A DNA stretch of 64,000 nt from Chiridota heheva. Its lineage: Eukaryota > Echinodermata > Holothuroidea > Apodida > Chiridotidae. Under the pieces are notes generated by a model. The model did no database searches, was not told the DNA's origin, and saw only the letters and a list, made by a program, of their open reading frames with translations. Each line of letters begins with the position of its first letter. Position 1 is the stretch's first letter. A program made the translations under genes and the position numbers. Below are positions 6,470 through 56,366 of the stretch, piece after piece. The stretch covers positions 400,001 to 464,000 of the forward strand of contig JAIGNY010001241.1 of the NCBI GenBank assembly GCA_020152595.1, given 5' to 3'.

Positions 6470-7765
6470 TTAAAAGATCTTAAAACAACCAGACATCACA
6501 AACGATACACATCTCCTCACCACTAAAAACATGCTTTTCAGCCTCTGTCATACCTGCCATCCTACCCTCTGTTCCACATATCATACCATGCTACTCCCTC
6601 CCTACAGGAAATCATACATGAAATCCAGACACCATTCCACAACATGACCCATATGCCACCACACCTGCAATCAAGATGACATCCCACCATATGCCTTGCC
6701 ACCCTGTCCTGTATACCATGCCACCCTGTCCCATATACCACGCCACCCTGTCCCACATGCCATCCCTCCCTGTCCCATATACCATGCCACCCTGTCCCAC
6801 ATCCCATCCCTCCTTGTACCATCCTAACCTGTCCCACATCCCATCCCTCCTTGTACCATCCTAACCTGTCCCACATGCCATCCTTCCATGTACCACATGC
6901 CATCCCACCCTGTCCTACATGTCATTACACTCTGTCCCCCATGCCATCCCACCTTGTCCCACATGCCATCCCAGCCTGTGATAAATGCCATGACACTACC
7001 TTATTTCACATGTCAACCCACCCTGTCCCACATGCTATCCCACCCTGTCCTATATGCCATGACATCCTGTCCCACATGCCATGGTATCATTCCACACACC
7101 ACCCTGTCCCACATGCCATCCCACCCTGTCCCACATTTCATCTCATCCCATTCCCCATGCCATCCCACCTTCATCCTAATTCCTACATCTACCAATCATT
7201 CTACCATTTTCCACCCAACATCCTTTCCTCTCACTCCCATTCCCTCACTTCTATCAACTCAACATGTCCCATTCACCTACCGTCCCCCTTCACCTGCCAT
7301 CCCCAGTTCATCTACAATCCTCCATTCACCTGCCATCCTCTATTCCCCAACATGCCCCATCACCATAACACCACCCTGTCCCACATACCATCCCACCCTG
7401 TCCCACATTTCATCTCATCCCATTTCCCATGCCATCCCACCACCCTGTCCCACATGCCATCCACCCTGTCCCACATTTCATCTCATCCCGTTCCCCATGC
7501 CATCCCACCTTCATCCTAATTCCTACATCTACCAATCATTCTACCATCTTCCACCCAACATTCTTTCCTTTCACTCCCATTCCCTCATATCCCATTCACC
7601 TACCGTCCCCCTTCACCTGCCATCCCCATTCACCTAACATCCCCATTCACCTACCATCATCCATTCACCTACTAGCCCAACCCACTTTTTGCCATCCACT
7701 TATCTACCAAATATACTCTTAACCAACTCATCATTCTAACCTTCACTATAACCTTAACTCTCCAT
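6470..7765 (+). mobile_element. Diverged third copy of the Helitron-like family, with 22-bp array
   Basis: 6510-6700 matches the left-centre of the elements at 17.3 and 31.9 kb (CATGACCCA.ATGCCA, then TCCAGATGACATCCCACCA-like words). About 6700-7150 is an array of a 22-bp unit (CATGCCATCCCACCCTGTCCCA and variants). The right flank resumes homology (CATCCTAATTCCT, CTACATCTACC). A block of about 150 bp is duplicated 340 bp apart (around 7125-7280 and 7465-7620). The termini are not visible. Overlapping frames with repeated HAIPPCPTC-type residues are translations of the repeat. Confidence 0.6.
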
Positions 7766-17317: not shown

Positions 17318-17716
17318 CTAGAACTGTCGGAAGGACAGTATGCTGCACTATTCAAAGCTAGTATTGAGAATGGGATGATAGAGAGGTACAGAAATAGGGT
17401 AGCAGGGGGAAAAGGATTTCAAATTACTTGAGCTTTGAAAGACGCACTTACATTTTCATTTCCACTACAAGCTTCAAAATATCTTTTAGTTTTCCCAGAT
17501 ATTTTGAGGCAAAAAAAGCTAAAAGTTACCTCACCCAATAGCTCAGAGAACATGTAAAACCTAGCAGTCTTTATAACTACAACACCTCTTTTAGTTCTAT
17601 CAATTGAATAACAAAGAAAGGAGAGGCCCTAACTTGCCAATGCCAATGAAAGAATGTCATTAAAACCACTTTCCAACCTGTACCCTCCCCAAGCCCCTAC
17701 ACATTTCCATAACTAC

Positions 17717-17724
17717 ATCCTGGG
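17717..17724 (+). repeat. 8-bp target duplication, hAT A left
   Basis: ATCCTGGG, repeated exactly at 18778-18785. Confidence 0.95.
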
Positions 17725-18777
17725 TAGAGCTGTGAACGTTTAGGGATTTTAGTAAACGTGTAAACGCCAAAAAAAGCGAGCGTGTATCGTGTACACGAGT
17801 TTAGTGCCGTAATTTTCGGAAATACACCAAAATTGCTCCAAAACTAAAGAGGCGAAGTTAAAAAATCGCGCAACTAGTATGGCAAAAGTACAGACTGCAT
17901 TGCCCAAATAGACGCTGAGTTTTGCTTTCCAAATCGTAAAAAGTTTACTTCTATAGTACAAATCATCATTTTTATGGAAAATATGCATGAAAATTCAGTT
18001 TAGAAAGAACAGATAACTTCCTTTCAATGTCATTTGAACTTAACATCGTGTAACTTGTTTGTCCTATTCGCTACGCCTTTCAAAGTTCTGTGAAAATCTT
18101 GCATACTGAGACCTATGATATACCTCGCGGTAAAACATTCCAAAACTACGCCACCACGATCAAGGAAGTTCTGAAATATTAGTCCTCTCGAAAAAATGGC
18201 CGCCTTCTTTGCGAAGCATGCAAAATTTCAGCTTTGTTAAAACCTTTTTCTGTTTATATATTATGCAATATTTTTTCTCTCTTGCAAAATTTACTTGATT
18301 CATCAGATAATATTTACATGTAAATGTACTGATTGTCACGATTCAAGTGTTTTTTGGTCGATGAAACGGGCCTTGATTGCGTGGGATTTAAAGCCTTATG
18401 GCCTAACGTTAGGCCTCTTGTTAGTTTCGCTGTTTACTGCTGCACATTTGCAGTGCATTTTACAAGTTAGATTACTCAGATTTCGGCGAAATCAAAGTGC
18501 ATAATATCCCCATTCATTGGTGATTACTGCGCATTTGTGATTCGCACATTTAAAAAAGATTATGCTAATCGGGTTTACAGTTTGTAAAAAATCATTGATT
18601 GGAATTTTGTTAGCCGAATGTGTGTGTGATTTGAATCATGAATATTGATTTTCAACGGCAAGACACTAGGCCTATAAAATAATGTATGAAAAACGATTAC
18701 TCGCAATGAAGTATTTAGTAAACGTTTACAAGATTTGCGAGCGTGTAGTGAGTACACGCTAAACGGTCACAGCTCTA
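17725..18777 (+). mobile_element. Non-autonomous hAT transposon, copy A
   Basis: 1053 bp. The left terminus TAGAGCTGTGAACGTTTA and the right terminus TAAACGGTCACAGCTCTA are inverted repeats, with subterminal CGAGCGTGTA/TACACG palindromes at both ends. A perfect 8-bp duplication (ATCCTGGG) flanks it. TIR type and duplication length are diagnostic of the hAT superfamily. The frames inside are short and show no transposase, zinc-finger or hATC dimerisation motif, so a transposase from elsewhere would have moved it. The pre-insertion site is preserved in Helitron-like copy 2 near 32350. Confidence 0.92.
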
Positions 18778-18785
18778 ATCCTGGG
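18778..18785 (+). repeat. 8-bp target duplication, hAT A right
   Basis: ATCCTGGG, exact partner of 17717-17724. Confidence 0.95.
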
Positions 18786-19156
18786 CTGTAATAAAACTTC
18801 TAGTTTAAAAAAATATGTGTGTCAAGCATTGTCAAGCAGCGTGAAAATGTACAATAACATTAAAGCAAAATTATGCGAAACAATATTGCTTAACGTATGA
18901 CAAACTAGACATTGGAAACGATTCAAATTCCCTCACCGTTAATAATGCTTAAGTCAGACTGTCCCACATTCCATCCCAACGTGTCCCAAATGTCATCCCA
19001 CTTCAATACTCCATACAATCACACCTGAAAACCAGATACTGTATGTTATTCCATTACTTGCATGACCCACATGCCATCACAACTGAAATCCAGATGACAT
19101 CCCACCACATGCCATTCTGCCTTGCCCCACATGTCGATCCACCCTGTTTCACATAC

Positions 19157-19164
19157 CTACCCAA
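19157..19164 (+). repeat. 8-bp target duplication, hAT B left
   Basis: CTACCCAA, repeated exactly at 20216-20223. Confidence 0.95.
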
Positions 19165-20215
19165 TAGAGCTGTGACCGTTTAGCGTGTACTCGCTACACG
19201 CTCGCAAATCTTGTAAACGTTTACTAAATACTTCATTGCGAGTAATCGTTTTTCATACATTATTTTATAGGCCTAGTGTCTTGCCGTTGAAAATCAATAT
19301 TCATGATTCAAATCACACACACATTCGGCTGACAAAATTCCAATCAATGATTTTTTACAAACTGTAAACTCGATTAGCATAATCTTTTTTAAATGTGCGA
19401 ATCACAAATGCGCGGTAATCACCAATGAATGGGGATATTATGCACTTTGATTTCGCCGAAATCTGAGTAATCTAACTTGTAAAATGCACTGCAAATGTGC
19501 AGCAGTAAACAGCGAAACTAACAAGAGGCCTAACGTTAGGCCATAAGGCTTTAAATCCCACGCAATCAAGGCCCGTTTCATCGACCAAAAAACACTTGAA
19601 TCGTGACAATCAGTACATTTACATGTAAATATTATCTGATGAGTCAAGTAAATTTTGCAAGAAAGAAAAAATATTGCATAATAAATAAACAGAAAAAGGT
19701 CTTAACAAAGCTGAAATTCTGCATGCTTCGCAAAGAAGGCGGCCATTTTTTCGAGAGGACTAATATTTCAGAACTTCCTAGTGGTGGTGGCGTAGTTTTG
19801 AAATGTTTTACGGCGAGGTATATCATAGGCCTCAGTATGAAAGATTTTCACAGAACTTTGAAAGCCGTAGCGAATAGGACAAACAAGTTACGCGATGTTG
19901 AGTTTAAATGACATTGAAAGAAAGTTATTTGTTCTATCTAAACTGAATTTCCATGCATATTTTCCATAAAAATGATGATTTGTACTGTAGAAGTACACTT
20001 TTTACGATTTTGAAAGCATAACTCAGCGTCTATTTGGGCATTGCAGCCAGTACTTTTGCCATACTAGTTGCGCGATTTTTTTACTTCGCCTTGTAGTTTT
20101 GGAATAATTATGGTGTATTTTTGAAAATTACGGTACTAAACTCGTGTACACGATACACGCTCGCTTTTTTTGGCGTGTACACGTTTACTAAAATCCCTAA
20201 ACGTTCACAGCTCTA
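19165..20215 (-). mobile_element. Non-autonomous hAT transposon, copy B (inverted)
   Basis: 1051 bp, the same element as copy A in reverse orientation and nearly identical to it by eye. It begins TAGAGCTGTGACCGTTTAGC, ends AAACGTTCACAGCTCTA, and has an 8-bp duplication CTACCCAA. It sits at the start of the 22-bp minisatellite of Helitron-like copy 1. Different target duplications show two separate insertions rather than an inverted duplication of the locus. Non-coding. Confidence 0.92.
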
Positions 20216-20223
20216 CTACCCAA
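20216..20223 (+). repeat. 8-bp target duplication, hAT B right
   Basis: CTACCCAA, exact partner of 19157-19164. Confidence 0.95.
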
Positions 20224-20590
20224 CCTGTTCCACATGCCAACCCACCCTGTTTCACATACCAATCCACCCTGTTCCACAGATGCCAACCCACCCTCTTCCA
20301 CATGCCAACCCACCCTGTTCCACATGCCTGCCCACCCAGTTCCACATGCCAACCCACCCTGTTCCACATGCCAAGCCACCCTGTTCCACATGCCAACCCA
20401 CCCTGTTCCACATGCCAAGCCACCCTGTTCCACATGCCAACCCACCCTGTTCCACATGCCAACCCATCCTGTTCCACATGCCAACCCACCCTGTTCTACA
20501 AGCCACTCCACCCTGTCTAACATGCCAACACATCCTGACCAACATCACACCGCACCCTGCCCTACATACAATTCCACCCTGTCCCACATG
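20224..20590 (+). repeat. 22-bp minisatellite in Helitron-like copy 1
   Basis: About 15 units of CAACCCACCCTGTTCCACATGC and variants. 22 is not a multiple of three and the unit lacks stops on most readings, which explains the open frames on both strands. Confidence 0.9.
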
Positions 20591-21059
20591 ACCTCATCCT
20601 AATTCCTTCAGCTACATTATCATCATGTCATCTTCTACCCCACATTCTGCTTATTGCTTATATTACCCAAACCCATAATTTAACATTCTTTAGAAGCAAG
20701 GAAACTGTCATTTGCTTCTTTATTCATGGCAAGACAAACATTTTGATTGCTATTTATGTCAGGAATGTCAATATCATAACAAAAATAGAAATGTGAAGTT
20801 AGTATTAGTCATAAGTTATATTTTTGATCTCACACAATACCTCACCATTGAGTGTGAACAATGCTCTTCAAATATACTGTATGATCATTTTTTTAATTTT
20901 TTTAAATTCATCATACCCATTTTAATTCAAGAGATACCACGTAAATGAATGTTTTCATTGCTATACAGATTGGCTAATTATTACGCTCACACAATCCCCC
21001 AACCAAGCTTAATTGAACAGTACCAATGCCCCCTACCACTGAACCAAGTACCAAGTGAT

Positions 21060-21840
21060 TACCTCAGGTTACATATTTTGTATGCAAGTCCATTGTTATG
21101 CAAATAACCTACTTAATATGCACACTACACCTCACCATTGAGTGTAGCCAATGCTCTTCACATATATGATCATTTGTGTAAGCAAATTTCCTACTCCCAC
21201 TATGATTTTAGAAATATCATAGATGCAAATATTTTCATTGTTATACAAATAAGCTAATGAGTATGCACACACAACCCCAAATCAGGCTCATTTCAACAAT
21301 ACCCATGTTCTCTTTCCATGTAACAAGTACCAAGTTATTATCTAAGGTTAAATATTTTATGCAGTCTATTGTTATGCAAATAACATAATTACTATGCACA
21401 TTACACCTCAACATTAAGTGTAGACAATAATCTTCACATATATGATCATTTGTGTAAACAAAATCCCCACTCCCACTTTAATTTAAGAGATATCATGATA
21501 CAAACATTTGTATTGTTATGCAAATAAGCTAATTAGTATGCAAACACAACCTCCCAACCATGTTTACTTAAACAGTACCAATGTCCTCTACGCCTGTGCC
21601 AAGTAACATGAATGTACATCATTCATAACTTAAGTTATGAAAATTTTAACCAAAAACTTTAACCAGACAAATATTTTCATTGTTATGCAAATAAGCTAAT
21701 TGGTATGCACACACAACCCCCAATCATGTTAAGTTGAACAGTACCCATGCCCTCCACCCCTGTGCCAAGTCACATGAATGTACACCATTCATAACATATG
21801 TTATGAAAACTTTAACCAAAACTTTTACCGGACGCCGACG
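21060..21840 (+). repeat. Octamer-containing internal repeats, copy 1
   Basis: Units of about 145-170 bp each carry TTGTTATGCAAATAA followed by GCTAATTAGTATGCACAC or a variant, then an AACAGTACC.ATG block and CATTCATAACTTAAGTTATG. ATGCAAAT, the canonical POU octamer, occurs near 21094, 21374, 21519 and 21685. Confidence 0.8.
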
Positions 21841-21887
21841 CCTGAAGTAGAAGACCAGCTCTACTAGTCTTTGAATAGTCGATCTAA

Positions 21888-22535
21888 AAAGTGCTGATAG
21901 TGTAAGGGTTAATCAATCCGCGACAAGTAAGCCAACTCACAGAGGACCCTTCAATAATCGGCCCTTGGTTAACCCTTACTCTACCAAGTGGCAACATTAT
22001 CGCCGTTTTGGTTTCCTCATCTTTGACTCTGCCACCCAAGCGCATTTAAGAAAAAAAGCTGGTAGAGTGAGGGTGTAAATGAACCCGCGACAGTACACCA
22101 ACTCCAAAATATATGCAACATGATCCCGGTGGTGGCCCAGCGGGTAACTCAAGCGGAACGAGTCAGACCCTGCTATTTAAAAAACAGAAAAGACCCTTCA
22201 ATAATCAGCCCTTAATTAACCCTTACTCTACCACGTGGCGAAAATGTCGCCGTTTTGAGTTCCCATCTTTGACTCTGCCTCCCGAGCACATTTTCAAAAA
22301 AGTGCTGGTAGAATAAGGATTAATGTACCCGCGATAAGTGCACTAACTCCAAAATATATGCAGCATAATCCCGGTGGGTGGCCCAGTGGGTCACTAAAGC
22401 GGAATGAGCCAGTCTCTCTGCTTGAAAGACAGAGGACCCTTCAATAATCAGCCCTTGATTAACCATTGAGTTCCCCATCTTTGACTCCGCCTCCCGGGCG
22501 CATTTTCAAAAACGTGCCGGTAGAGTAAGGGTTAA
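21888..22535 (+). repeat. 240-bp family, three diverged units
   Basis: AGTGCTG.TAG.GTAAGGGTTAA, AACCCTTACTCTACCA, GACTCTGCCTCC and ACCCTTCAATAATC recur three times and align with the cleaner array at 55292-56366. The CpG-derived sites are partly decayed. Confidence 0.8.
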
Positions 22536-22596
22536 ATAGTCCTCTATCATATATATCAAAACGAAAATTCATGGGAATATTCCTTTAATAATGAAA
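22536..22596. repeat. MITE family 2 right-end fragment
   Basis: CCTCTATCATATATATCAAAA, then CATGGGAATATTCCTTTAA, is the family's terminal 55-60 bp. Confidence 0.7.
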
Positions 22597-22615
22597 AGCT
22601 CAATCATATTAATCT

Positions 22616-22718
22616 TCGTGCATCAGTCGTAACTTGGCATCAGTCGTAACTTGGCATCAGTCGTAACTTGGCATCAGTCGTAACTTGGCATCAGTCGTAA
22701 CTTGGCATCAGTCGTAAC
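22616..22718 (+). repeat. 17-bp minisatellite, six copies
   Basis: CATCAGTCGTAACTTGG repeats exactly in tandem; the last copy is degenerate (AACTCG). Confidence 0.95.
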
Positions 22719-23036
22719 TCGTAAAACCCACGTAATTTACAATATAATTCTACTGTGTTATATCTGGTTGTAGCAAAAGATTTTCCAATTATTTTAGACA
22801 TACAATCAAAACGTTTGACCAACTTGCTTTGAAAGAATTTCGAGAAAGACAACCTTACAGCATCACTTTTTGACGTATCTTTTCTATCTGATTAAAAATT
22901 TACACCTGCGTTGACCAAACATAAGATACTGCACGTGCCTGTGGGTACTTTGAAGGTTGTCGATCAAATGAAATTATTAACAGAATGGGGCAATTAGTAC
23001 CATTTTTGTAAAGTAATGAATTTGATGAAAACTTAC

Positions 23037-23075
23037 AAAAAGGAGAGATAATTTGGCTCGCTTTCTTGACATTTT
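23037..23075 (-). CDS. Candidate 39-bp internal exon, minus strand
   Basis: On the minus strand, TTGATTCTCAG ends at 23076 and GTAAGTTTTC starts at 23036, a good acceptor/donor pair around 39 bases. All three frames are open (for example NVKKASQIISPF or KMSRKRAKLSLLF), so the sequence does not choose a phase. Length is a multiple of three. Too short to recognise. Splice-site quality is the only support. Confidence 0.28.
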
Positions 23076-23105
23076 CTGAGAATCAATGCTCTTAATTGTA
23101 ATTAT

Positions 23106-23503
23106 GGTTTGGTTTGGTTTGTTGATGTTTAATGGCACTGTGACAGTCAGTCAAATGTGCCAAGAGGTGTTAAAAAATGAAGGTGTTAAAGTTAGGGCAG
23201 AGAGGAGATGGAGGATTGAAAGGGAGAAAAGGGGCAAAATAGGGTGAATTTGAGGGCAAAATTACAAATGTGTACGGTTAGGTGTAGAAGGGAAGGGAAA
23301 GGAATATCAGATATGGTGGAATAAGTTGTTGTTACAAAGGAAGTTGATAATGTTGGAGGAAGGATTGTTTTTTAATGAACTGAGATTGAGGTGGGTGAGG
23401 AGAGAAGAGACCTGGAGTTCAGGTATAAGCGACTGGTTAAGAGGGTACGCTTGATGGAGAGGTCGGTGTTGCAGCTGGGGCAGGGGAGCCGGAAAGCAGA
23501 TGG
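23106..23503 (-). mobile_element. 5'-truncated LINE family 2 insertion
   Basis: Left: GGTTTGGTTTGGTTTGTTGA tail and TTTAATGGCACTGTGACAG, then CAAATGTGCCAAGAGG. Flanks AATTGTAATTAT (23094-23105) and AATTGTAAATAT (23504-23515) form a 12-bp target duplication with one mismatch. About 400 bp of 3' sequence; no intact domain. Confidence 0.8.
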
Positions 23504-23764
23504 AATTGTAAATATCTTTGAAAAAGCCCTTGTGAATGGCTCAACACTTGCAATTGGAACCTTCAGCCCTAGGTACAAACTTATAATTTTGAGTCAAACT
23601 TGAAGATCGCTCTCGGTTGGAATCTTTACGAGCATTTACAAAAAGCCAGTTCATATGAGGCTCATGTAGGTTCACTGGAAGCACATATAGCTCACTGCAA
23701 GTTATTACCGGTTATTAAGAACAAGCAAAAGTGGGTCAGAAGTCATGCTCACAAGAGAAAGATA

Positions 23765-23980
23765 CCAGTTAGGTATGACCAGGGAGCTATTCCAACTCCC
23801 TGGAATGACTCCCATCATGAGCGCTGCAATGTGTCCTTGAGTAAGAAACTTCATTTACTCCAGTCTACTGACCTGTAAAATGAGCACTAGTTCTGCTGGG
23901 GAGTTAACCTGTGATGGGGCTCATGCCATATCCATGTGCTGTTATCCACTTACGCCAAAGGGAAAAGCGCAAACCTGAAT
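23765..23980 (+). repeat. SINE-like repeat, second copy
   Basis: GCTGCAATGTGTCCTTGAG, TGGGGAGTTAACCTGTGATGG and ATGAGCACTAGT match the unit at 5625-5935. Diverged. Confidence 0.5.
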
Positions 23981-24573
23981 GGGCCTACAAGCATTCGCTA
24001 ATGACGTACTCATACAAGCCAACATTGAGCTCAAATCATTTCAATTTTTGAATTTATATGTGTATCTCGTGTACAAATCCTTAATGTTAATTAAGCCGAA
24101 GAGTGATAAGGGCACAGTACCTGCCAGTTCAGAGGTCAATGATATGTCAGGGCACAGGTCAATGACCCACCGTTTTCAAGATCAATGACCTATCAATTCG
24201 AATACCAATGACCTAATAAATAAACATCACTCCAATATTCAAACCATCTAAAATTCTAACTTTCCTTAGGCCCACTGGCAACTCACTGTTCATACCATAC
24301 CAGTATATAGTTCACAAACTTCACATATCAAAGTGTGGCACACATTACATGGTCATAGATGGTATACCAATACCTAAATCATTATCTCACTGACATTTCT
24401 AGGACTTAACAGGAAAATGCCAATTTCCTTAAGGATTCAAAGACTGAATTTTAAAATACAGCAGTGCTTCCTAATGAATTGAAAAGGCCATTTGAATTCC
24501 CTTCACAAGGGCAACATGATCAAATTAGTGTGAATGTTTCAGATTTGATACTTGACAAATACCGTAAGTGTAA

Positions 24574-24899
24574 AGGCCGTGACACACCGAACGTGACGCG
24601 GTGAGCGATTTTTTAAACAAAATTGAATAAAACAAAAGAAAATAAACATTTTGAACTCTTGTTTTCATAGGTGGATCGCCATCGTATGGCTTCAGATGAT
24701 AACTGAAAATTGATTAAAGCGAATTTCTCAACAGTTTGAACAAAAAAGCATTTCTAGCAAATTTTCCAGTATCACCAGAAAGCCTCAATTATAAACTTTA
24801 TCGGGTGTGAGCAAAAAGTCAAAGCATCTTATAATATTTGTTTCCTGCATGATTATTTAAAATATCGCTCGCCGCGTCGCGTTCGGTGTGTTACGGCCT
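24574..24899. mobile_element. MITE with 36-bp GC-rich inverted repeats, Harbinger-like
   Basis: The arms AGGCCGTGACACACCGAACG and CGTTCGGTGTGTTACGGCCT continue inward as GACGCGGTGAGCGAT and ATCGCTCGCCGCGTCG. TAA flanks both sides (24571-24573 and 24900-24902), consistent with the 3-bp target duplication of PIF/Harbinger. The interior is AT-rich and non-coding. Its right border is shared with a family-1 MITE terminus. Confidence 0.8.
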
Positions 24900-25070
24900 T
24901 AAAGGATTAGATCTATGGTGAAGCGAGTCCATCTGACATGAAAGTAAACAAAATGGTGAAGAAACTAGCTAATTCAATTGATATCATTCTGCTAAGGAGA
25001 TATTCAAGTTTAAAGTTTTCTTTCATTTGTTTTTTAGCCACAAAATCTCAGGAGAAAATACAATAAAATA
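24900..25070. repeat. MITE family 1, fragment
   Basis: TAAAGGATTAGATCTATGGTG to AAGTTTAAAGTTTTC is a left arm, followed by unrelated ACAAAATCTCAGGAGAAAATA. Confidence 0.65.
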
Positions 25071-25073
25071 GTA

Positions 25074-25550
25074 AAGGATTAGTTCAGGGGTCAAACAAGT
25101 CTATCTTATATGAGAGAGGACTTCAAAGGAAACAAAATGTGAAGAAGGCATTCAGAAATCTTATTCCGTTAAGGAAATATTTAAGTTTTAAAGTTTGGTA
25201 TTATTTGTGTAGAAACAACTGAAATCAGACTAGTTGTGATGTCACAGCCTCAGATTCCTCAGTCTTTCTGTATTCTATCATATTTTGTCCAGCGATTTTG
25301 TGACTTAAAAACTATATGTCAGAGAAGTAGTAAAACTGAACCTAGGAAGGGTATTTATTATATACCATCTGAAAAAATTTCATAGAAAAATAATTCAGAT
25401 AGTAAAAAAGTTAAATAAATTTATCTTTAAAATGCATTAATTGTTAACAATGGGCATCATCTTTCCATAGTAGACTTACTACACCAGTCATTTCTACATA
25501 GATAAGACAAGAGTTTTAAACTTGAATATCTACTTAACTGAATAATAGGC
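25074..25550. repeat. MITE family 1, right-truncated copy
   Basis: GTAAAGGATTAGTTCAGGGG through the interior (GATGTCACAGCCTCAGATTC) to GAATATCTACTTAACTGAAT; the last 90 bp of the right arm is missing. Confidence 0.75.
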
Positions 25551-26164
25551 AAATATTGGTACACTAGAGCTGGCATTCATGCAGTCAATGCAATACACTG
25601 CACAAAACAAATTTCTGCACATGCAAACTAACTAATGACAAGATGGTGAACAAAAATTGCACCTACGGGCCCACTACAGGCTTTTTAAATCTGATTCCCG
25701 TTACACAGAAGGGTTAACAAACATAATCTTGTTTATTCCTTTTGCTAAAAACTCTAAAGATCCGGAGAAGTGCCATAAATGGACCAAAGCATGCGGCCAC
25801 ATGAATATCTGAAAGTCAATGTATTGGGCATGCATGACTATATGTGTACGTTTGTTTTCCCCACCTAGTTACTGCATTGCTATGCTGAGGGTGGCCTATT
25901 TCCTTGATAGGAGAGGTCAAGTGTGAGCTCGCATTGAGCATGCAGTGGGCTTAATGGGATATAAGGGAGATGAGCACAGGTTGTGTGAGACAAAAAAATA
26001 TACATAAAAATCTCTCACCCCTCTTTGAAGTCTCAGACAAAAATATATTAGGTTGGTTATTCCTTAACCATCCTACACTCAAAATTAAGCAATCTTAGTC
26101 CCTGTCCTAATGACACAAAATAACCTTCTTTCACCTCCATGCTTTCACTAGCACCATTTCCGCC

Positions 26165-26340
26165 ATTCAAGCCCATTGGGCTAGTCGTATAATCAAAAAA
26201 TTCCAGTATAATTATGTCAGACGTAAAGAAAAGGGCTTGTGGAAAGTTTAGTGGATTAAAAATAAGGTGAGGTGAGAAAGCCTAACAGACTCGTGATAAA
26301 CAAATGCTAATTTCGAGCCCTGGTTCAATCAACCCAACAA
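26165..26340 (+). repeat. Dispersed repeat, paralogous to 12580-12782
   Basis: GCCCATTGGGCTAGTCG and AACAAATGCTAATTTCGAG match the copy at 12.6 kb. Class unknown. Confidence 0.45.
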
Positions 26341-27466
26341 AGAAAAGGACATCGATACGCTATGTTGAAACAGCGTCTATGAAATGTTTCTTGTACCCTA
26401 GTAAGATGTGATGTACAGTACGGAATAGTAGACATGTTTACGCTTCACTTCAGAGCACCTCATTTAAATTCCCGGTAAGGCCTTTCGGTTTGAGAAGTAA
26501 TAGTCAGCATTACTTTCTCTACTGACCTTGAGAAAAGCTTCCCATATAACCTATAGACACACATTAGATATCATATAAAAAAGACATAAAAATAGAAATG
26601 CTAATAACCTAAGCATCTAATAACCTTCTGTTCATTGGAAACAAAATCAACATAAGAAAATAACAAGTGGACATTTAATATTTAGAGACACCTTAAAATC
26701 AATTTGTCATCTTGGATCAATGTTCAAGTTACATACCCCGATTGTATAATTTCATAATGTATGTACCACAAAATCTGTCATACTGCGGGTATGGTTTTTG
26801 GTTGATGGGCTGCATACCCATACCACTTTTAGTATGAAGTAACTTCCCCCTCACTCCACCCCGCACCATGGTTGCATATACAAGTCTATAAGCAACCTGC
26901 AGAATTTAGACAAGTTGCATCTCCCTGTGGGTGTAGCCAGTATTTGGGATTGGGAGGTCGTAAAAACAAAACAAAATTGCTAATGGCATGAAAAAAATCT
27001 GAAGTTTTGTCAAACTTTTAATGGCCATTAAACTGTTCGGAAGCTAAATTTTACTAACTTAGATCAAAACTAAGGTAGTATACTCAATATCTGGACCTTT
27101 TAGCATAATTTCTGGACTGTTAACAAATTTTCTGGACCTTTTGTGGAGATGGGGTTGGGGAGAAAGGGGGGGAGAGGGGGGGTCAAACAAACTGGTCATC
27201 CTCAATTGGCGGCATAAATACAAAAATGGATTATGAAATCCCCTGCAAAGGGATTATAAAAGAAGAAACATACTAACCCATTGAACGGTGATATTCCAGC
27301 CAAGTAAGGCCTGATTGGTGTAATACCAAATTAAATATCTACAAAATGTCCATTTTTGCCACGAAAGTCCTGTATTAGAATTACAGTTCGAAAGATCGAA
27401 ATAATTATATAATTTTCCACAAAATAAATAACAAATTCTTGCAAATTCTTTATAATTTTTTTCCAG
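26341..27466. other. No gene recognised
   Basis: AT-rich sequence with low-complexity GGGG patches near 27150-27180. No coding, repeat-family or RNA signal that I can support. Confidence 0.3.
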
Positions 27467-27540
27467 TGCTTCAGAACAAGGAAGAAAATCCTTCGAGGAT
27501 GAAAAGTCAGTTTTTGTCTTCTTCTAATGAGACAAATATA
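27467..27540 (+). CDS. Candidate 74-bp exon, plus strand
   Basis: TTTATAATTTTTTTCCAG precedes and GTAAGTATG follows a 74-bp segment, a strong acceptor and donor. Only one frame is open throughout (two bases then LQNKEENPSRMKSQ...), leaving phase 0 at the donor. It is on the opposite strand to the other exon candidates, so it would belong to another gene or be chance. No family recognised. Confidence 0.3.
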
Positions 27541-27887
27541 GTAAGTATGAAATTGTAGTCACGTGAAAAAACACCTTTTGCGGAGTGCCTTATTGCTGGG
27601 CAGGCAGGCAGATGAAATACGAGCATAAATATCTCTCTCCCACCTCCTATCAATAATCACAAAACCAAGCTCTGGGATTTCCACATGGGGCCTTTAGTAC
27701 CCAACACATGAGGTACAGTATACTACACAATCTACAAATTTATTATAAAATACAAATGTAGAGCCTGTTCTCACTCGAGAACAAACTCGAGATCAGATCC
27801 ACTGCAGGCGAATTCGCCGATTTTTTTACTGTAAGAATGCTCGTGCCGGATCTGATAGCAGTCAATTGATCTGATTCCTAGTCGAGA

Positions 27888-28440
27888 GTATTATTATTAT
27901 TATATACCATATACTTTAAGCGCTCATTTCAGAACAAAATATGCCAGCTCACAAGCACTTTACAATGGAAAACAAAAATAACATATACTTATACATAAAC
28001 TTATTCTTGTACTTATAAATAAACTTATACTTATACAAAAACATATACTTATAACAACAAAACAGGCAAAAACGGGCACTAAAAACAAAACATTACTAAT
28101 GAAAATATTGAGTGTATAAGTGAGTTTTAAGAGCCCTTTTGAAACCTGCAAGATTTTGGATTGAACAGATGGTCATGGGGAGTTTATTCCAGAGGTGTGG
28201 TGCAGCCCAGCAGAAAGATCTTTCCCCACTGGATGACAGTATACGAGGGACTTCAAAGTTCATGGTATCTTGAAAACTTAGTACACGCTTAGACCTGTAT
28301 AATGAAAGTATATCATTGACGTAGTTGGGTAATAAATGATGTAATGCCTTAAAAGTTAACAAATTAATTTTAAATTCTATCCATACTTTTATGGGAAGCC
28401 AGTGGAGGGTAGGATCATGATCCAGAGCAGCCAATCAGAT
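27888..28440 (-). mobile_element. L2/CR1-like LINE 3' fragment
   Basis: The minus frame at 28096-28434 (112 aa) reads LHWLPIKVWIEFKINLLTF, then ALHHLLPNYVNDILSLY, then WAAPHLWNKLP and FKRALKTHLY. This is the highly conserved C-terminal region of reverse transcriptases of the L2/CR1 group. About 200 bp of 3' UTR follows, ending in an ATT trinucleotide run at 27888-27903 that reads (AAT)n on the element strand, as expected for a LINE 3' tail. The frame begins mid-protein, so this is a 5'-truncated dead copy, although the part present is intact. Confidence 0.85.
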
Positions 28441-29137
28441 CCACCAATGAGATTCTCAAAAAATGTATGTCAATACAGATCATGTGACCTGCAATCACAT
28501 TAGTTACGCAATATCTTGTTCATTTTGCACAAAAAGTTAGCCTGACTGGTTATACTTCGCTGGTTTTTCAATGACCCATCTTTCAAATTGTGGTTCATTC
28601 ATTTCTAATAACTGATAAATTGAAACCTACACATGCTATTTTGAAAATTCAAAAACTATTGAACTCAGAATTGACTGTTCCTTTGGTTATGTGGTTGAAT
28701 AACAAGCCTTAAAACAAGCAAGCTATATTTTTGTCAGGATTATAGTCCTTGAAGTGAATATTTACACTGATGATACATTCATGACAATTGATTTGCAACA
28801 AACAAAATTTTGAATTACAAGATAGACAAAATTGAACTGTTTTTTTGTTTGTTTTAAAACAACCATTGCAGTTTCTACAACATTACATCAAATTCTGCTC
28901 ACACAGAAATGTTAGCAGGTAAAATTTGTATTCATCTTTTCTATTAATAAATCAAGACTAGAATAAACTGTAGTAAGAAACTCCAGATGACTAATTAGTG
29001 ATTATATACTGCCAGTAAAAATAAAAGTAACTTTTCAAGAGTTTCAATTTCAATAAGGTATTATATGAAAATAACTGCTTATCATAATACTAGATACTTC
29101 TTTGAAAAGTTTCAGTTCTTCTTTGTTAAATAATTTG
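28441..29137. other. No gene recognised
   Basis: AT-rich DNA between two minus-strand LINE fragments. No supported feature. Confidence 0.3.
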
Positions 29138-30948
29138 TTTGTTTGTTTGAGGGCTTAACGGCACCATGACAACGAAGGTTAAATTGTGCCTGAGAGGTCA
29201 GATCATTTTAGAGGTAGGAAGGAAAGAAAACAGGGGGGAATGAGAGAAAATCAGGAACAAAAGGTCAGAAAGCTGTGATTGAGAGGGGAGGTGCATGGTT
29301 GAAACAAAAACAAAGTAGAGAGGAGGTGGAAGAGGAGATTTAAATATAGTTGTAGAGGGCGGCATGATGAAGGAAGGGGATAATTTTATCCAGAGGACTT
29401 TTCTGGAAGAACTCAGCAATTGAGTTGTGGGGAGCAAGGGAAGTCCTGGGAAGGTTGTACAGGGGGCAAGCAAGGAGAACATGATGGATTGTGAGGGTGC
29501 GATGGCAGTTGTTGCAGAGGGGTTGGGGGAGCCAATAAGGAGGTGGGAGTGAGTGAGGTGGGTGTGACCAATTCTTAGACGGGTAATATGAACGTTGTCG
29601 ATACGAGAGAGGTAGTTGATGGTGGATTTGATTGGAATTGTGGGCTGGATGACATGTGAGTTTGTTATCAATTTAGGAGTTCCATGAGGTTTGCCAGCGG
29701 TCACGAACAAGAAAAGCGATAAGCGGTTTGATGTCAGAGAGGGTTTTGGGAAAAGGGGTAGGGATGAGGTTGAGGGCAAGCTTGGCTGCTGCATCAGCCC
29801 TGCTATTGCCAGGGATGCCAACATGGCTGAGTATCCAGAACAAAAGAACACTTTTCCTGCAGAGGGTGGGAGAAAGGAGTTTCCGGAGGAGGAGGTGGCA
29901 TGTGAGCTTATCCCATTTAAGGTTGAGTAAAGAGGTAAGAACCGCCTTTGAGTCGGAGAAAATGGCAAAGTGGCTGAGAAGAGAGTACTCAATCAAATTG
30001 AGAGCGAGAAGAATGGCCTTAGCCTCGGCTGAAAAGATGGATGAGTAGTCGGGAAGTCTGCTACTGAGGGTGATGTCTTGGATGACAGCAGCAGCAGCTG
30101 TCTTGTTGCCTTCCTTGGAGCCATCAGTATAGATGGAGGTGTAAGTTGAGAGTTGGTCTTTGATTTGGTTGTGGAGATTGATGAAGAAGTTATGGTGGGT
30201 TTGAGTTTTGTGATGAGTGGAGAGGTACCAGGTGGACAAAAGGGAGGGAGGTGGCCCAAGGAGGAAAAGTGGGCCGGGAGAAGGTGTTGAGAGTGGTGGG
30301 GTTAATGTCGAGACGGAAAAGGTCTGATTTAATGCGTAAGCTGAAGGAAGGGGATAGGATTTTAGTCCTATCAAAGAGGGTGGAGAAATTGGGGTACCTA
30401 ATGAGGTTGTAAACAGGGTTCTGGGTAATGGTGAGGACTCTAAAATCATAGGAGAGGCTAACCTTTCTACATCTAAGTTGAATGGGGGGTTCATTGGCTT
30501 TAACATGAAGGCTGGTGATTGGGGAGGTCCTGTAGGCACCTAGACAAAGCCTGAGCGCTTCATTTTGGATGGTGTTGATGTGGTTGAGGTATGAGTTGTG
30601 AGCGACACAGTTGACAATATTGCCATAGTCAAGCTTGGCATGAATGGTGAGCCTGAAAATTTTGAAAAGTATAGCGGTTCGCACCCAAAGTGGTGTTGGA
30701 GAGGAGTCGGAGGAGGTTGAGAGAGCTGTTGCATTTTACTTTCAGGTTAGTGATGTGTTGCTTGTAGATGAGCTTGGGGTCTAGAGTTAGACCCAGGAAT
30801 TTTGTGTGTTCAACTTTAGGGATGCGATTGTCATTGAGCACAAAGTTCGGGTTGAGGTGGAGGTTGTTTAAATGACAAAAAGTGCATGCAGACTGTCTTG
30901 TCTTTGGAGAATTTAAAACCGTTATTGTTGCTCCAGACTTGCAGTTGG
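29138..30948 (-). mobile_element. LINE family 1, 1.8-kb 5'-truncated copy with RNase H
   Basis: The minus-strand element ends in a tail seen as (TTTG)3 at 29138-29151, preceded by the family 3' UTR (GGCTTAACGGCACCATGACAA). Frames at 30190-30684 and 29673-30539 give the RT thumb/connection (LDYGNIVNCVAHNSYLNHIN) and RNase H: YTDGSKEGNK, FSAEAKAILLAL, FSDSKAVLTSL and SHVGIPGNSRADAAAK, so the acidic D-E-D-D residues are visible. Frameshifts separate the pieces, and the polymerase palm with YVDD is missing here (present at 59-61 kb). Domain order matches RNase H-bearing LINEs of the I/Jockey group. Homology with the 59-kb copy stops at about 30948, where the microsatellite starts. Confidence 0.88.
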
Positions 30949-30951
30949 TAA

Positions 30952-31463
30952 ACAGGCAAACAAACAAACAAACAAACACACAAACAAACACACACAAACA
31001 AACAAAACAAACACACAAACAAATAAATATACAAACAAATAAATACACAAACAAACACACACAAACAAACAAACACACACACAAATAAACAAACAAATAC
31101 ACAAACAAATAAACAAACAAACACACAAACAAATAAATATACAAACAAAAAAATACACAAACAAACACACACAAACAAATAAACAAACAGAATACACAAA
31201 CAAACAAACATACACACAAACAAACAATAAACAAACAAACACACAAACAAATAAATATAAAAACAAATAAATACACAAACAAACACACAAACACACACAC
31301 ACAAACAAAACCAAACAAACACAATAAACAAAAAACACACAAACAAATCAATATACAAACAAATAAATACACAAACACACAAACAAACACACACAAACAA
31401 ACAAATAAACAGAACACACAAACAAACAAATAAACAAACAAATACAGAAACAAACAAACAAAC
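30952..31463 (+). repeat. (CAAA/CACA)n microsatellite, about 510 bp
   Basis: Irregular alternation of CAAACAAA, CACACAAA and AAATAAAT. On the minus strand it reads as stop-free Phe-Val-Cys-Leu frames of up to 300 residues, which are artefacts. It starts exactly at the 5' truncation point of the adjacent LINE. Confidence 0.95.
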
Positions 31464-32534
31464 ATGAGACAATATTGCAGGAAATTACAAATGGTAAATA
31501 GAGCCCCTCTAGTAATGTAGATAATATGCACGGAACATTACAATATGAAAAATTACTTCTGGTTGGTTGAAAGTATATAAGGAACATAAGACGCATATTT
31601 TCAAAAATAGTTCAATTCCTTCTTTGGCCCTTTTGATTTCACATTTTCAACCAAAGATCTTATTTTTATTTTTTTTATAGTTTTTTTATTAAAACAAATT
31701 CAAGGGCAGGGGGAAGGGGGAGGGAGGGGCACATTTGGATGATAGCTCCGATGAAATATTACACTTCATCAACAGCACACCAGTTTTAGACGTTTATGGT
31801 TACCGATGTTACCATAAACATTATTAAAACATAGTAAGCTTCGTGTTTTTAGACCCTTTTGACTCCTTTTTCCTCCAAACACTTTTGATTAATTTTGAAT
31901 ATTTAGGTCAATACAGTACTAGCTAAATAACTAACTAGAACTGTCAGAAGGACAGTATGCTCGACTATTCAAAGCTAGAATAGAGAATGGGCTTATAGAG
32001 GGAAGTATATACAGAAATAGAGTAGCAGGGGCAGATGATTTCAAATTACTAGAGCTTTGAAAAATGCACTTACATTTTCATTTGCACTACAAGTTCAAAA
32101 TATCTTTAGAGTTTTCCCAGAAATTTTAAGACAAAAAAAACAACAAGGTTACCTCACCCTGTAACTCAGAAGACATGTAAAACCTAGCAGTCTTTATAAC
32201 TACAACACCTCTTTAACAACACCTTTTTTAGTTCTATCAATTTAATAACAAATAAAGCTAGGAGAGGCCCTGACTTGCAAATATCAATAAAAGAATGCCA
32301 TTCAACCCCCTTTCCATTTGTACCATCCCCCAGCCCCTACACATTATCAGAACTACATCCTGGAGTTGCAATACAACTTTCAATTTAAAAAAAATATGTT
32401 TGTCAAGCAAAGTCTAGCAGCATGAAAAATGTACAATAACATTAAAGCAAAATTATCGAACATTATTGCTTAACGTATGACAAACTAGACATTGGAAATG
32501 ATACAAATCCTCTCATCGCTATTAATGCATATTC

Positions 32535-34950
32535 CAGACTGTCCCACAATCCAGACTGTCCCACAATCCAGACTGTCCCACAATCCAGACTGTCCCACAA
32601 TCCAGACTGTCCCACATTCCAGACTGTCCCACATTCCAGACTGTCCCACATTCCAGACTGTCCCACATTCCAGACTGTCCCACATTCCAGACTGTCCCAC
32701 ATTCCAGACTGTCCCAGACTGTCCCACATTCCAGACTGTCCCACATTCCAGACTGTCCCACATTCCAGACTGTCCCACATTCCAGACTGTCCCACATTCC
32801 AGACTGTCCCACATTCCAGACTGTCCCACATTCCAGACTGTCCCACATTCCAGACTGTCCCACATTCCAGACTGTCCCACATTCCAGACTGTCCCACATT
32901 CCAGACTGTCCCACATTCCAGACTGTCCCACATTCCAGACTGTCCCACATTCCAGACTGTCCCACATTCCAGACTGTCCCACATTCCAGACTGTCCCACA
33001 TTCCAGACTGTCCCACATTCCAGACTGTCCCACATTCCAGACTGTCCCACATTCCAGACTGTCCCACATTCCAGACTGTCCCACATTCCAGACTGTCCCA
33101 CATTCCAGACTGTCCCACATTCCAGACTGTCCCACATTCCAGACTGTCCCACATTCCAGACTGTCCCACATTCCAGACTGTCCCACATTCCAGACTGTCC
33201 CACATTCCAGACTGTCCCACATTCCAGACTGTCCCACATTCCAGACTGTCCCACATTCCAGACTGTCCCACATTCCAGACTGTCCCACATTCCAGACTGT
33301 CCACATTCCAGATCCCACATTCCAGACTGTCCCACATTCCAGACTGTCCCACATTCCAGACTGTCCCACATTCCAGACTGTCCCACATTCCAGACTGTCC
33401 CACATTCCAGACTGTCCCACATTCCAGACTGTCCCACATTCCAGACTGTCCCACATTCCAGACTGTCCCACATTCCAGACTGTCCCACATTCCAGACTGT
33501 CCCACATTCCAGACTGTCCCACAATCCAGACTGTCCCACATTCCAGACTGTCCCACATTCCAGACTGTCCCACATTCCAGACTGTCCCACATTCCAGACT
33601 GTCCCACATTCCAGACTGTCCCACATTCCAGACTGTCCCACATTCCAGACTGTCCCACATTCCAGACTGTCCCACATTCCAGACTGTCCCACATTCCAGA
33701 CTGTCCCACATTCCAGACTGTCCCACATTCCAGACTGTCCCACATTCCAGACTGTCCCACATTCCAGACTGTCCCACATTCCAGACTGTCCCACATTCCA
33801 GACTGTCCCACATTCCAGACTGTCCCACATTCCAGACTGTCCCACATTCCAGACTGTCCCACATTCCAGACTGTCCCACATTCCAGACTGTCCCACATTC
33901 CAGACTGTCCCACATTCCAGACTGTCCCACATTCCAGACTGTCCCACATTCCAGACTGTCCCACATTCCAGACTGTCCCACATTCCAGACTGTCCCACAT
34001 TCCAGACTGTCCCACATTCCAGACTGTCCCACATTCCAGACTGTCCCACATTCCAGACTGTCCCACATTCCAGACTGTCCCACATTCCAGACTGTCCCAC
34101 ATTCCAGACTGTCCCACATTCCAGACTGTCCCACATTCCAGACTGTCCCATTCCATTCCAGACTGTCCCACATTCCAGACTGTCCCACATTCCAGACTGT
34201 CCCACATTCCAGACTGTCCCACATTCCAGACTGTCCCACATTCCAGACTGTCCCACATTCCAGACTGTCCCACATTCCAGACTGTCCCACATTCCAGACT
34301 GTCCCACATTCCAGACTGTCCCACATTCCAGACATTCCAGACTGTCCCACATTCCAGACTGTCCCACATTCCAGACTGTCCCACATTCCAGACTGTCCCA
34401 CATTCCAGACTGTCCCACATTCCAGACTGTCCCACATTCCAGACTGTCCCACATTCCAGACTGTCCCACATTCCAGACTGTCCCACATTCCAGACTGTCC
34501 CACATTCCAGACTGTCCCACATTCCAGACTGTCCCACATTCCAGACTGTCCCACATTCCAGACTGTCCCACATTCCAGACTGTCCCACATTCCAGACTGT
34601 CCCACATTCCAGACTGTCCCACATTCCAGACTGTCCCACATTCCAGACTGTCCCACATTCCAGACTGTCCCACATTCCAGACTGTCCCACATTCCAGACT
34701 GTCCCACATTCCAGACTGTCCCACATTCCAGACTGTCCCACATTCCAGACTGTCCCACATTCCAGACTGTCCCACATTCCAGACTGTCCCACATTCCAGA
34801 CTGTCCCACATTCCAGACTGTCCCACATTCCAGACTGTCCCACATTCCAGACTGTCCCACATTCCAGACTGTCCCACATTCCAGACTGTCCCACATTCCA
34901 GACTGTCCCACATTCCAGACTGTCCCACATTCCAGACTGTCCCACATTCC
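32535..34950 (+). repeat. 17-bp satellite-like array, about 142 units
   Basis: CAGACTGTCCCACATTC repeats over about 2.4 kb, nearly perfect. The first units read CACAATC, as does one internal unit near 33523. Truncated or fused units lie near 32710, 33300, 34150 and 34333. At the matching place copy 1 has a single GTCAGACTGTCCCACATTCC (about 18955). Because 17 is not divisible by three and the unit has no stop in any frame, open frames of more than 800 codons appear on both strands; they are not genes. Confidence 0.97.
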
Positions 34951-35099
34951 ATCCTAACCTGTCCCAAATGTCATCCCACGTCTATACTTCATGCAATCAC
35001 AACTGAAAACCAGATATTGTATGTCATTCCACCAATTGCATGACCCACATACCATCACAACTGAAATCCAGATGACATCCTACCACATGACATTCCCCC

Positions 35100-35240
35100 C
35101 TGCCCACATGTTGACCCACCCTGTTCCACATGCCAACCAACCCTGTTCCACATGCCAACCCACCCTGTTCCACATGCCTACCCATCCTGTTCCACATGCC
35201 AACCCACCCTGTTCTGCATGCCATTAAACCCTGTCTAACA
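35100..35240 (+). repeat. 22-bp minisatellite in Helitron-like copy 2
   Basis: About six units of CAACCCACCCTGTTCCACATGC, the same unit as at 20224-20590 but with fewer copies. Confidence 0.85.
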
Positions 35241-35819
35241 TGCCAATACATCTGACCAACATCCCACCGCACCCTGCCCTACATACAATTCCACCCTGTC
35301 CCACATGAAATCTCACCCTCATCCTAATTCCTTCAGCTACTTTATCATCATGTCATCTTCTATCCAACATTCTGCTTATTGTTTATATTTCCCAAACCCA
35401 TAATTTAACATTCTTTAGAAGCGAGGATACTTTTATTTGCTTCTTTATTCATGGCAAGACAAACATTTTGATTGCTATTCATGTCAGGCATGTCAATATC
35501 ATAACAAAACAAGAAATGTGAAGTTAGTAAGTCATAAGCCATATACTTTTGATCTCGAATCAAATATATTGCAGCAAATGCACACTATACCTCACCATTA
35601 AGTGTGAACAATGCTCTTCACATATACTATATGATCATTTGTTTAAGCAAAATCATCATACCCACTTTAATTCAAGATATACCACATATACAAATATTTC
35701 CATTGCTATACAAATAGGCTAACTATTATGCACACACAATCCTCAAACCATGCTCAACTGAACAGTACCATTGCCCTCTACCACTGAACAAAATAGCAAG
35801 TTATTATCTCAGGTTAAAT

Positions 35820-36640
35820 ATTTTGTATGCAAGTCTATTGTTATGCAAATAACCTACTTAATATGCACACTACACCTCAACATTGAGTGTAGACAATGCT
35901 CTTCACATATATGATCATTTGTGTAAAACAAAATCCCCACTCCCACTGTAAGTTAAGACATATCATAGATATGAATATTTTCATTGTTATGCAAATAAGC
36001 TAATTAGTATGTATACACAACCCCAAATCATGCTTATTTGAACAGTACCCATGTCCTCTACCACTGTGCCAAGTTACATGAATGTACATCATTCATAACT
36101 TAAGTTATGTGCTCATGAATCTTAAACATTTTCTACGAAAATCTATTGTTATGCAAATAATATAATTAATATGCACACAAGGCCTAATCATGCTCACTTG
36201 AACAGTCCCCCTATGCCAAGTTACATGAATGTACACCATTCATAACTTAAGTTATGAAAACTTTAACCAAAACTGTTAACCAAACTTTAACCTGACAAAT
36301 ATTTTCATTGTTATGCAAATAAGCTAATTATTATGCACACAACCCCCAATAATGCTCATTTGAACAGTACCCATGTCCTCTATCCCTGTGCCAAGTCACA
36401 TGAATGTACAACCATTAATAACTTATGAAAACTTTAACTAAAAACTTGAACCAAAACTTGAACCAAAACTTTAACCTGACAAATACTTTCATTGTTATGC
36501 AAATAAGCTAATTATCATGCACACACAACCCCCAATCATGCTCATTTGGTCAGTGGCCCATTTCCTCTACCCCTATAACAAGTCACATGAACGTACACCA
36601 TTCATAACTTACGTTAGGAAAACTTTTAACCAAAACTTTA
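35820..36640 (+). repeat. Octamer-containing internal repeats, copy 2
   Basis: Five occurrences of TTATGCAAATAA near 35843, 35988, 36142, 36311 and 36497, most followed by GCTAATTA, in units of about 145-186 bp matching copy 1. Confidence 0.8.
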
Positions 36641-36701
36641 CCGGACGCCGACGCCGAGGATAGTAGAATAGCCCTACTATCCTTCGAATAATTAGAGCTA
36701 A

Positions 36702-42715: not shown

Positions 42716-42880
42716 GAAATAGTTCATCTGAACAGTACCCATGTCGTCTACCCCTGTGTTACGTGAATGTACACCATTCCTAACTTAAGTTATGATCTCA
42801 GGTTAAACATTTTGCACGAAAGTCTATCATTATGCAAATAACCTACATGCTACACCTCACCATTAGGTACACAAAGTGCA
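42716..42880 (+). repeat. Helitron-like family fragment (octamer repeat)
   Basis: GAACAGTACCCATGTCGTCTA, CATTCCTAACTTAAGTTATG and ATTATGCAAATAACCTACAT match one internal unit of the elements at 21 and 36 kb. Confidence 0.75.
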
Positions 42881-55291: not shown

Positions 55292-56366
55292 CCTTAACCC
55301 TTACTCTACCATGTGGCGATATTATCGCCGTTTTGGGTGCCCCGTCTTTGGCCCCGCCTCCCGAGCAAATTTTAAAAATAGTGCTGGTAGAGTAAGGGTT
55401 AATCAACCCGCGACATATGCGCCAACCCGAAAATATAGGCAGCATGATCGTGGGCGCCCAGCGGGTCCCGAGAGCAGAAGGGGCCCGACTTTTCTGCCTG
55501 GAAGACAGAGGACCCTTCAATAATCACGCCTTGATTAACCCTTACTCTACCACGGCGATATTATCGCGTTTTGGGTGCCCGTCTTTGGCCCCGCCTTCCG
55601 AGCGCATTTTTAAAATAGTGCTGGTAGAGTAAGGGTTAATCAACCCGCGACATATCGCCAACCCGAAAATATAGGCAGCATGATCGGTGGGCGGCCCAGC
55701 GGGTCCCGAAGAGCAGAAGGGGCCCGACTTTTCTGCCTGGAAGACAGAGGACCCTTCAATAATCACGCCTTGATTAACCCTTACTCTACCACGGCGATAT
55801 TATCGCGTTTTGGGTGCCCGTCTTTGGCCCCGCCTTCCGAGCGCATTTTTAAAATAGTGCTGGTAGAGTAAGGGTTAATCAACCCGCGACATATGCGCCA
55901 ACCCAAAAATATAGGCAGCATGATCCCGTGGGCGCCCAGCGGGTCCCGAGAGCAGAAGGGGCCCGACTTTTCTGCCTGGAAGACAGAGGACCCTTCAATA
56001 ATCACGCCTTGATTAACCCTTACTTACCACGCGGCGATATTATCGCCGCTTTGGGTGCCCCGTCTTTGGCCCCGCCTTCCGAGCGCATTTTAAAATAGTG
56101 CTGGTAGAGTAAGGGTTAATCAACCCGCGACATATGCGCCAACCCGAAAATATAGGCAGCATGATCCCGGTGGGCGGCCCAGCGGGTCCCGAGAGCAGAA
56201 GGGGCCCGACTTTTCTGCCTGGAAGACAGAGGACCCTTCAATAATCACGCCTTGATTAACCCTTACTCTACCACGCGGCGATATTATCGCCGTTTTGGGT
56301 GCCCCGTCTTTGGCCCCGCCTTCCGAGCGCATTTTTAAAATAGTGCTGGTAGAGTAAGGGTTAAAG
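55292..56366 (+). repeat. GC-rich 240-bp tandem array, about 4.5 units
   Basis: Unit starts (TTAACCCTTACTCTACCA) fall near 55294, 55536, 55775, 56014 and 56258. Each unit has an inner palindromic module of about 125 bp, from TAACCCTTACTCTACCA to TGGTAGAGTAAGGGTTA, holding GGCGATATTATCGCCG, and a linker with CAACCCGCGACATATGCGCC and GGCGGCCCAGCGGGTCCCGAG. GC and CpG content far exceed the flanks. Units are highly alike, so amplification looks recent; diverged units occur at 17.2 and 21.9-22.5 kb. Confidence 0.93.

Follow-up and report, generated by a model that had tools for sequence, protein, structure and literature searches.

Two copies of a probable non-autonomous Helentron family in Chiridota heheva, one of them with a nearly unique 17-bp minisatellite array

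Two copies of one family in the window

The window, a stretch of 64,000 nucleotides of contig JAIGNY010001241.1 from the holothurian Chiridota heheva, contains two copies of one repeat family (Table 1). Copies 1 and 2 share their ends, the order of their parts and their internal repeats, and lie where a first-pass annotation of the same DNA had placed them. In a blastn comparison of the two, the left 406 bp are 82% and the right 1.5-1.6 kb 80% identical. After removal of the later additions (in copy 1 both hAT-type inserts together with one 8-bp duplicate each, in copy 2 the 17-bp array), copy 1 measures 2449 bp and copy 2 2347 bp, in keeping with the earlier estimate of about 2.35-2.45 kb, and the stripped copies are 85.3% identical (1880 of 2205 aligned columns). 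Apart from frames that run through the minisatellites, neither copy has a reading frame of 110 codons or more. The interior follows the order of satellite-like units of roughly 160-280 bp, a 22-bp minisatellite and a 17-bp edge unit.

The enlargement of copy 1 by two hAT insertions, proposed from the sequence at first sight, is borne out by exact 8-bp target duplications and short inverted ends in both inserts, features by which both would belong to the hAT class. The inserts are 96.1% identical and lie in opposite orientation, and their inverted ends agree at 18 of 19 places.

Table 1. Features of the two elements in the window (positions of the window; length 64,000 nucleotides)
Feature	Position	Strand	Remarks
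Copy 1, probable non-autonomous Helentron (HINE)	17318..21887	-	canonical 5' end 21887, 3' end 17318
Copy 1, 3' palindrome	17323..17339	-	6-bp stem, 5-nt loop
Copy 1, 3' subterminal inverted repeat	17342..17357	-	diverged
Copy 1, first hAT-type insert	17725..18777		19-bp inverted ends; 8-bp target duplication ATCCTGGG at 17717-17724 and 18778-18785
Copy 1, second hAT-type insert	19165..20215		8-bp target duplication CTACCCAA at 19157-19164 and 20216-20223
Copy 1, 22-bp minisatellite	20218..20590	-	about 17 units
Copy 1, satellite-like long tandem repeats	20948..21833	-	periods 276 and 166 bp
Copy 1, 5' subterminal inverted repeat	21869..21884	-	reverse complement GATCGACTATTCAAAG; adjoins the 5' hairpin
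Copy 2, same probable HINE family	31935..36701	-	canonical 5' end 36701, 3' end 31935
Copy 2, 3' palindrome	31940..31956	-
Copy 2, 3' subterminal inverted repeat	31959..31974	-	GCTCGACTATTCAAAG; found at 5' ends elsewhere in the genome too
Copy 2, 17-bp array	32531..34951	-	about 141-143 units, 131 identical; nearly unique to this locus
Copy 2, 22-bp minisatellite	35114..35246	-
Copy 2, satellite-like long tandem repeats	36145..36611	-	184-bp period
Copy 2, 5' hairpin	36658..36682	-	9-bp stem GGATAGTAG/CTACTATCC
Copy 2, 5' subterminal inverted repeat	36683..36698	-	diverged

Other repeats are present in the window. A minisatellite of related 22-bp units at 6559-7678 was considered as a third copy and rejected, as blastn matched only the minisatellite part (59-71% similar to that of the family) and the family ends are absent. 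A fragment at 42725-42870 resembles the long satellite-like repeat of the family, and retroelement pieces (an RNase H domain and, below the cut-off, a weak match to reverse transcriptase) lie on the minus strand at 29673-30539 and 60502-61302.

Structure and polarity of the ends

The assembly (1.1 Gb in 3744 contigs) was searched for both ends, and 30 left-end and 30 right-end loci were compared, taken from the 40 best-scoring matches among 2502 and 976 first-look candidates, respectively. Viewed on the minus strand, a typical 5' end is TTTTT-AGCTCGACTATTC-GAA-GAATAGTAGAGC and a typical 3' end is CTTTGAATAGTCGAGC-AT-ACTGTC-N5-GACAGT-TCTAG-TT. Both consensus ends carry GCTCGACTATTC[A/G]AAG, and the 16-bp repeat is nearly alike at the two ends; the exact 16-mer is present at 18 of the 30 left-end loci and 8 of the 30 right-end loci, with variants at the remaining ones. 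The repeat stands 1-3 nt from the 5' end, according to how the TT is assigned. At the 3' end its inverted copy is set back by 24 nt and directly precedes a palindrome (ACTGTC-N5-GACAGT) that is exact in 26 of 30 loci. The last five nucleotides of the 3' end vary among copies (TCTAG in 22 of 30).

At the 5' end the repeat takes part in a hairpin: in 31 copies, 95.6% of 341 pair cells form, compared with 21.7-53.4% for slid partners. Covariation in this hairpin is weak (two pairs changed on both sides, a number reached by 36 of 500 shuffles), and the 5'-end hairpin of copy 1 folds no better than shuffled sequences do (94 of 200). The offset inverted repeats that had been noticed at the ends were confirmed for copy 1, where the best 14-mer match between the 60-bp ends is 12/14 and none of 300 shuffles equalled it. 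In copy 2 the repeats are present as well (11/14), but 10 of 300 shuffles equal this match; the signal of copy 2 is modest alone, and it is therefore the family data that carry the case.

Target sites and the choice between element classes

The exact 25-bp 3' terminus occurs at least 319 times in the genome (backward control 0), and TT in the element orientation (AA on the other strand) adjoins 259 of these 319 termini. At the aligned loci, the two places flanking the 3' end each have T in 29 of 30 and TT jointly in 28 of 30, a count that includes copy 2 (L001) and both L013 and L021, two loci with a left flank in common. On the 5' side, where a group of ten members with a common right flank was reduced to one and the 30 loci thereby to 21, the three places nearest the end have T in 20, 21 and 19 of 21 loci.

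Copy 1 is inserted in a unit of a 240-bp repeat family and reads TTTTCAAA / CTAG...CTAA / AAAGTGCTG, with three A on either side of CTAG...CTAA. Empty units of this family at six further loci show TTTTC-A6-GTG in 11 of 12 cases and A5 in one (the search query had been composed with A6); a run of A6 also stands in the window unit at 22286, and the runs of other window units are different. Comparison with paralogous empty sites, which had been suggested as a check on target duplication, thus concerns a single insertion, that of copy 1, and revealed no duplication beyond a possible TT. To this extent the claim that the unit rejoins cleanly holds, but a 2-bp AA duplication can be read equally well, because the A run masks the boundary and makes no duplication and a TT duplication indistinguishable. 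The published HINE data in the sections of PMC4067079 used here are similarly ambiguous on the number and side of the T. A search with the joined flanks of copy 2 found no empty site. The repeat that received copy 1 also forms tandem 239-bp units at 55294-56364 of the window, and its junction region has 865 first-look candidates in the genome.

Together, the 5' repeat-hairpin, the 3' repeat before a palindrome and the oligo-T/TT target are the marks of Helentrons and HINEs, and we regard the two copies as minus-strand members of a non-autonomous Helentron family (Helitron2 group, HINE), with a probability of about 0.9. The first-pass annotation had likewise proposed a possibly Helitron2-like, non-autonomous, minisatellite-carrying family, and the ends do match published Helitron2/Helentron features. 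It had also taken CTAA for a Helitron 3' CTRR end. Since the family fits the reverse of that orientation, CTAA is the complement of the 5' terminus, and the true 3' end is the one formerly called left, with its palindrome and TT flank; the earlier interpretation is thus partly supported, with the kind of element right and the polarity wrong. The lesson is that the terminal direction should be settled before a Helitron-like end is called CTRR.

A canonical Helitron (Helitron1) in the plus orientation, with CTAA as CTRR and a hairpin nearby, is very unlikely. The plus-strand right end does consist of a hairpin followed by 18-19 nt ending in CTAA, but the opposite end has CTAGAAC instead of TC and the flank AA instead of A/T, so that of the canonical marks CTRR alone fits, at the wrong end, while 5'-TC and the A/T target are missing. 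The CTAGAAC end has, moreover, a second palindrome and subterminal repeat pair, and every feature fits the reverse orientation of the Helitron2 group. Also very unlikely is an origin as a MITE-like derivative of a DDE (TIR) transposon that duplicates 2 bp (TT/AA) of its target: the A/T runs would be compatible with such a duplication and there are inverted repeats near the ends, but these are placed asymmetrically, at 1-3 nt on one side and 24 nt on the other, each end has a palindrome or hairpin, and the last five nucleotides of the 3' end are variable. Copy-to-copy variation in the last nucleotides is unusual for DDE ends. No DDE element with the same termini was encountered, in an analysis aimed at Rep/helicase partners.

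For the non-autonomous Helentron that we prefer, a Rep/helicase acting in trans would nick the 5' end, where the oligo-T lies beside the GCTCGACTATTC subterminal repeat, which may fold with the adjacent GAATAGTAGAGC. A single strand would be peeled off, halted at the 3' subterminal repeat and palindrome, and joined into an oligo-T target; as this joining would involve no staggered cut, no target duplication would be expected.

Distribution in the genome

The family is numerous in the genome. A 17-bp probe for the subterminal repeat, masked so as to leave out the left-end interior of the family, matched 303 places with at most one mismatch (backward control 0), and 46 of the 79 places with displayed letters are of the 5'-end type. 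For pairing, we used 168 5' ends (82 of 82 from one list, 46 of the 79 lettered probe places and 40 listed scored matches) and 147 3' ends (100 of the 319 exact termini, 19 more from 100 listed, and 28 of 40 listed matches); these lists are partial, and some coordinates were shifted to the terminus. Among the ends listed, 11 pairs in the expected orientation are 1.2-4.7 kb apart, copy 2 being the longest of them, and no wrong-strand pair lies within 20 kb. A pair at 19.3 kb is not real, as it joins the left end of copy 1 with the right end of copy 2. Three pairs have the 3' end ahead of the 5' end on the same strand, two of them about 210 bp and one 15.5 kb apart. At C281:66315-66522 and C763:119443-119658 (G000), a 3' end and, about 200 bp further on, a 5' end lie on the same strand; both places share one variant 5' hairpin, and the arrangement is either head-to-tail or a duplicated locus.

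Ten of the 30 right-end loci (L039, L040, L041, L044, L046, L050, L054, L056, L058 and L059) continue downstream into one and the same flank (AAATGACTGGTGTAATAAG...), which extends for up to 1.4 kb in some of them; they represent one copy that was amplified as part of a larger dispersed repeat. The sequence to the left of L013 and L021 is matched by a stretch 0.9-1.4 kb downstream of L054. With one flank shared by ten right-end loci and another by L013 and L021, the compared copies are not independent.

The 17-bp array of copy 2

The expansion of a 17-bp unit in copy 2, put at about 142 copies in the first-pass annotation, was confirmed by TRF (143.4 copies, 98% matches); we counted 138 exact units (CAGACTGTCCCACA[A/T]TC), or 141 when up to three edits are allowed. 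Of 128 exact dimers of this unit in the assembly, 127 are in copy 2 and one is at C1044:3427310. Among the 30 left-end loci, 22 have exactly one 17-bp unit according to the search applied, 7 have none, and only copy 2 has many; the zero counts of copy 1 are meaningless, as the 1651 bp examined after its 3' end are mostly hAT insert. The 17-bp unit lacks 5 bp of the 22-bp unit, to which it otherwise aligns with about three changes, and it looks like a shortened relative of the latter. At another locus (L030) we found 43 units of 22 bp, 88% alike, which reach the end of the examined stretch. Copy 2 has thus expanded the 17-bp unit and L030 the 22-bp unit, so that expansion is copy- and unit-specific in the copies seen.

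Local expansion of a single unit by slippage or unequal exchange is the most likely origin of the array. That it belongs to an older expanded subfamily or satellite is improbable: the one exact dimer at C1044 would agree with such an origin, and the assembly may have collapsed other arrays while arrays of diverged units escape an exact search, but nearly all exact dimers of the assembly lie within copy 2, the only one of the left-end loci with more than one unit. The lack of expanded relatives of copy 2 agrees, as far as one copy can suggest, with long arrays lowering mobility, an idea cited in the parts of PMC7492417 considered here; alternatively, the array may just have arisen after copy 2 was inserted. 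Tentatively, and with less than even odds, the minisatellite could seed copy-specific arrays, and a strongly expanded copy might leave no descendants, the expansion ending its mobility and founding a satellite locus. Most copies of the family have one 17-bp unit, yet this one holds 127 exact dimers, which makes it a concrete case of how rolling-circle elements may seed satellite DNA.

Rep and helicase relics

An autonomous Rep/helicase element with the ends of the family, which had been hoped for, was not found in the regions read, most relics having been read short of their ends. The PF14214 profile matched 11 places (10 with internal stops) and the PIF1 profile 7 (5 with internal stops). A Rep fragment (L076) has 19 matches on 13 contigs, and the relic, of Helentron type, has an OTU domain upstream of Helitron_like_N; OTU belongs to the Helentron gene set according to the sections of PMC4067079 used here. 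Two Rep-helicase relics (L078 and L079) are about 79% identical over 5.8 kb. The Rep, helicase and OTU relics of the genome are degraded. As partners, the 11 PF14214 loci with 1.5-kb flanks (L065-L075) were rejected, with only chance-like matches to both HINE ends, as were four longer regions (L076-L079), whose end matches are likewise chance-like (best E 0.012 across relics). On C1350, correctly oriented ends lie 12.8 kb apart (157075 and 169845), and the contig has no PF14214 or PIF1 match. The subterminal-repeat probe also revealed at least one further sequence class, CTGCAGGG[A/G/T]GAGTGCAC, at C69:659611, C163:27028 and C672:396055, which might be a partner or another HINE.

Comparison with known systems

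The kind of element is already known, and the peculiarity is the array of copy 2, nearly unique in the assembly. In the portions of PMC3627910 consulted, the asymmetric repeat of Helitron2 elements lies 0-2 bp from the 5' terminus, within a 5' hairpin, and at the 3' terminus 20-30 bp inward, directly before a hairpin; some examples (Chlamydomonas) insert after TTTT. The family shares with this group the asymmetric terminal inverted repeats, the hairpins and the oligo-T insertion; its 5' repeat is, depending on the TT assignment, 1 or 3 nt from the end, in contrast to 0-2 bp.

HINE/DINE-1 elements, as described in the same sections of PMC4067079, resemble the family in their subterminal inverted repeats, which lie close to the 5' terminus but further inward at the 3' terminus, in the palindrome close to the latter, in TT/oligo-T targets that show no clear modification, and in tandem repeats in some copies, high copy number and non-coding nature. 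Unlike them, the family has an interior made of a chain of three tandem-repeat types and no partner in the regions read, and the distance of its 3' repeat from the terminus is 24 nt, compared with about 38-60 bp in mite HINEs.

These sections of PMC4067079 and those of PMC7492417 describe HINEs that combine ends of this type with tandem repeats in the centre. Comparable in this respect are Cg_HINE (Crassostrea gigas) and Pearl, in which HINE ends flank arrays of satellite-like monomers. In the same parts of PMC7492417, these monomers are mostly 140-180 bp long and form thousands of dispersed arrays, the filter admitted repeats of 100-500 bp, and the longest array had 29.3 monomers. In C. heheva, by contrast, the long repeats give way to short minisatellites, and the 17-bp unit of one copy is present about 141 times.
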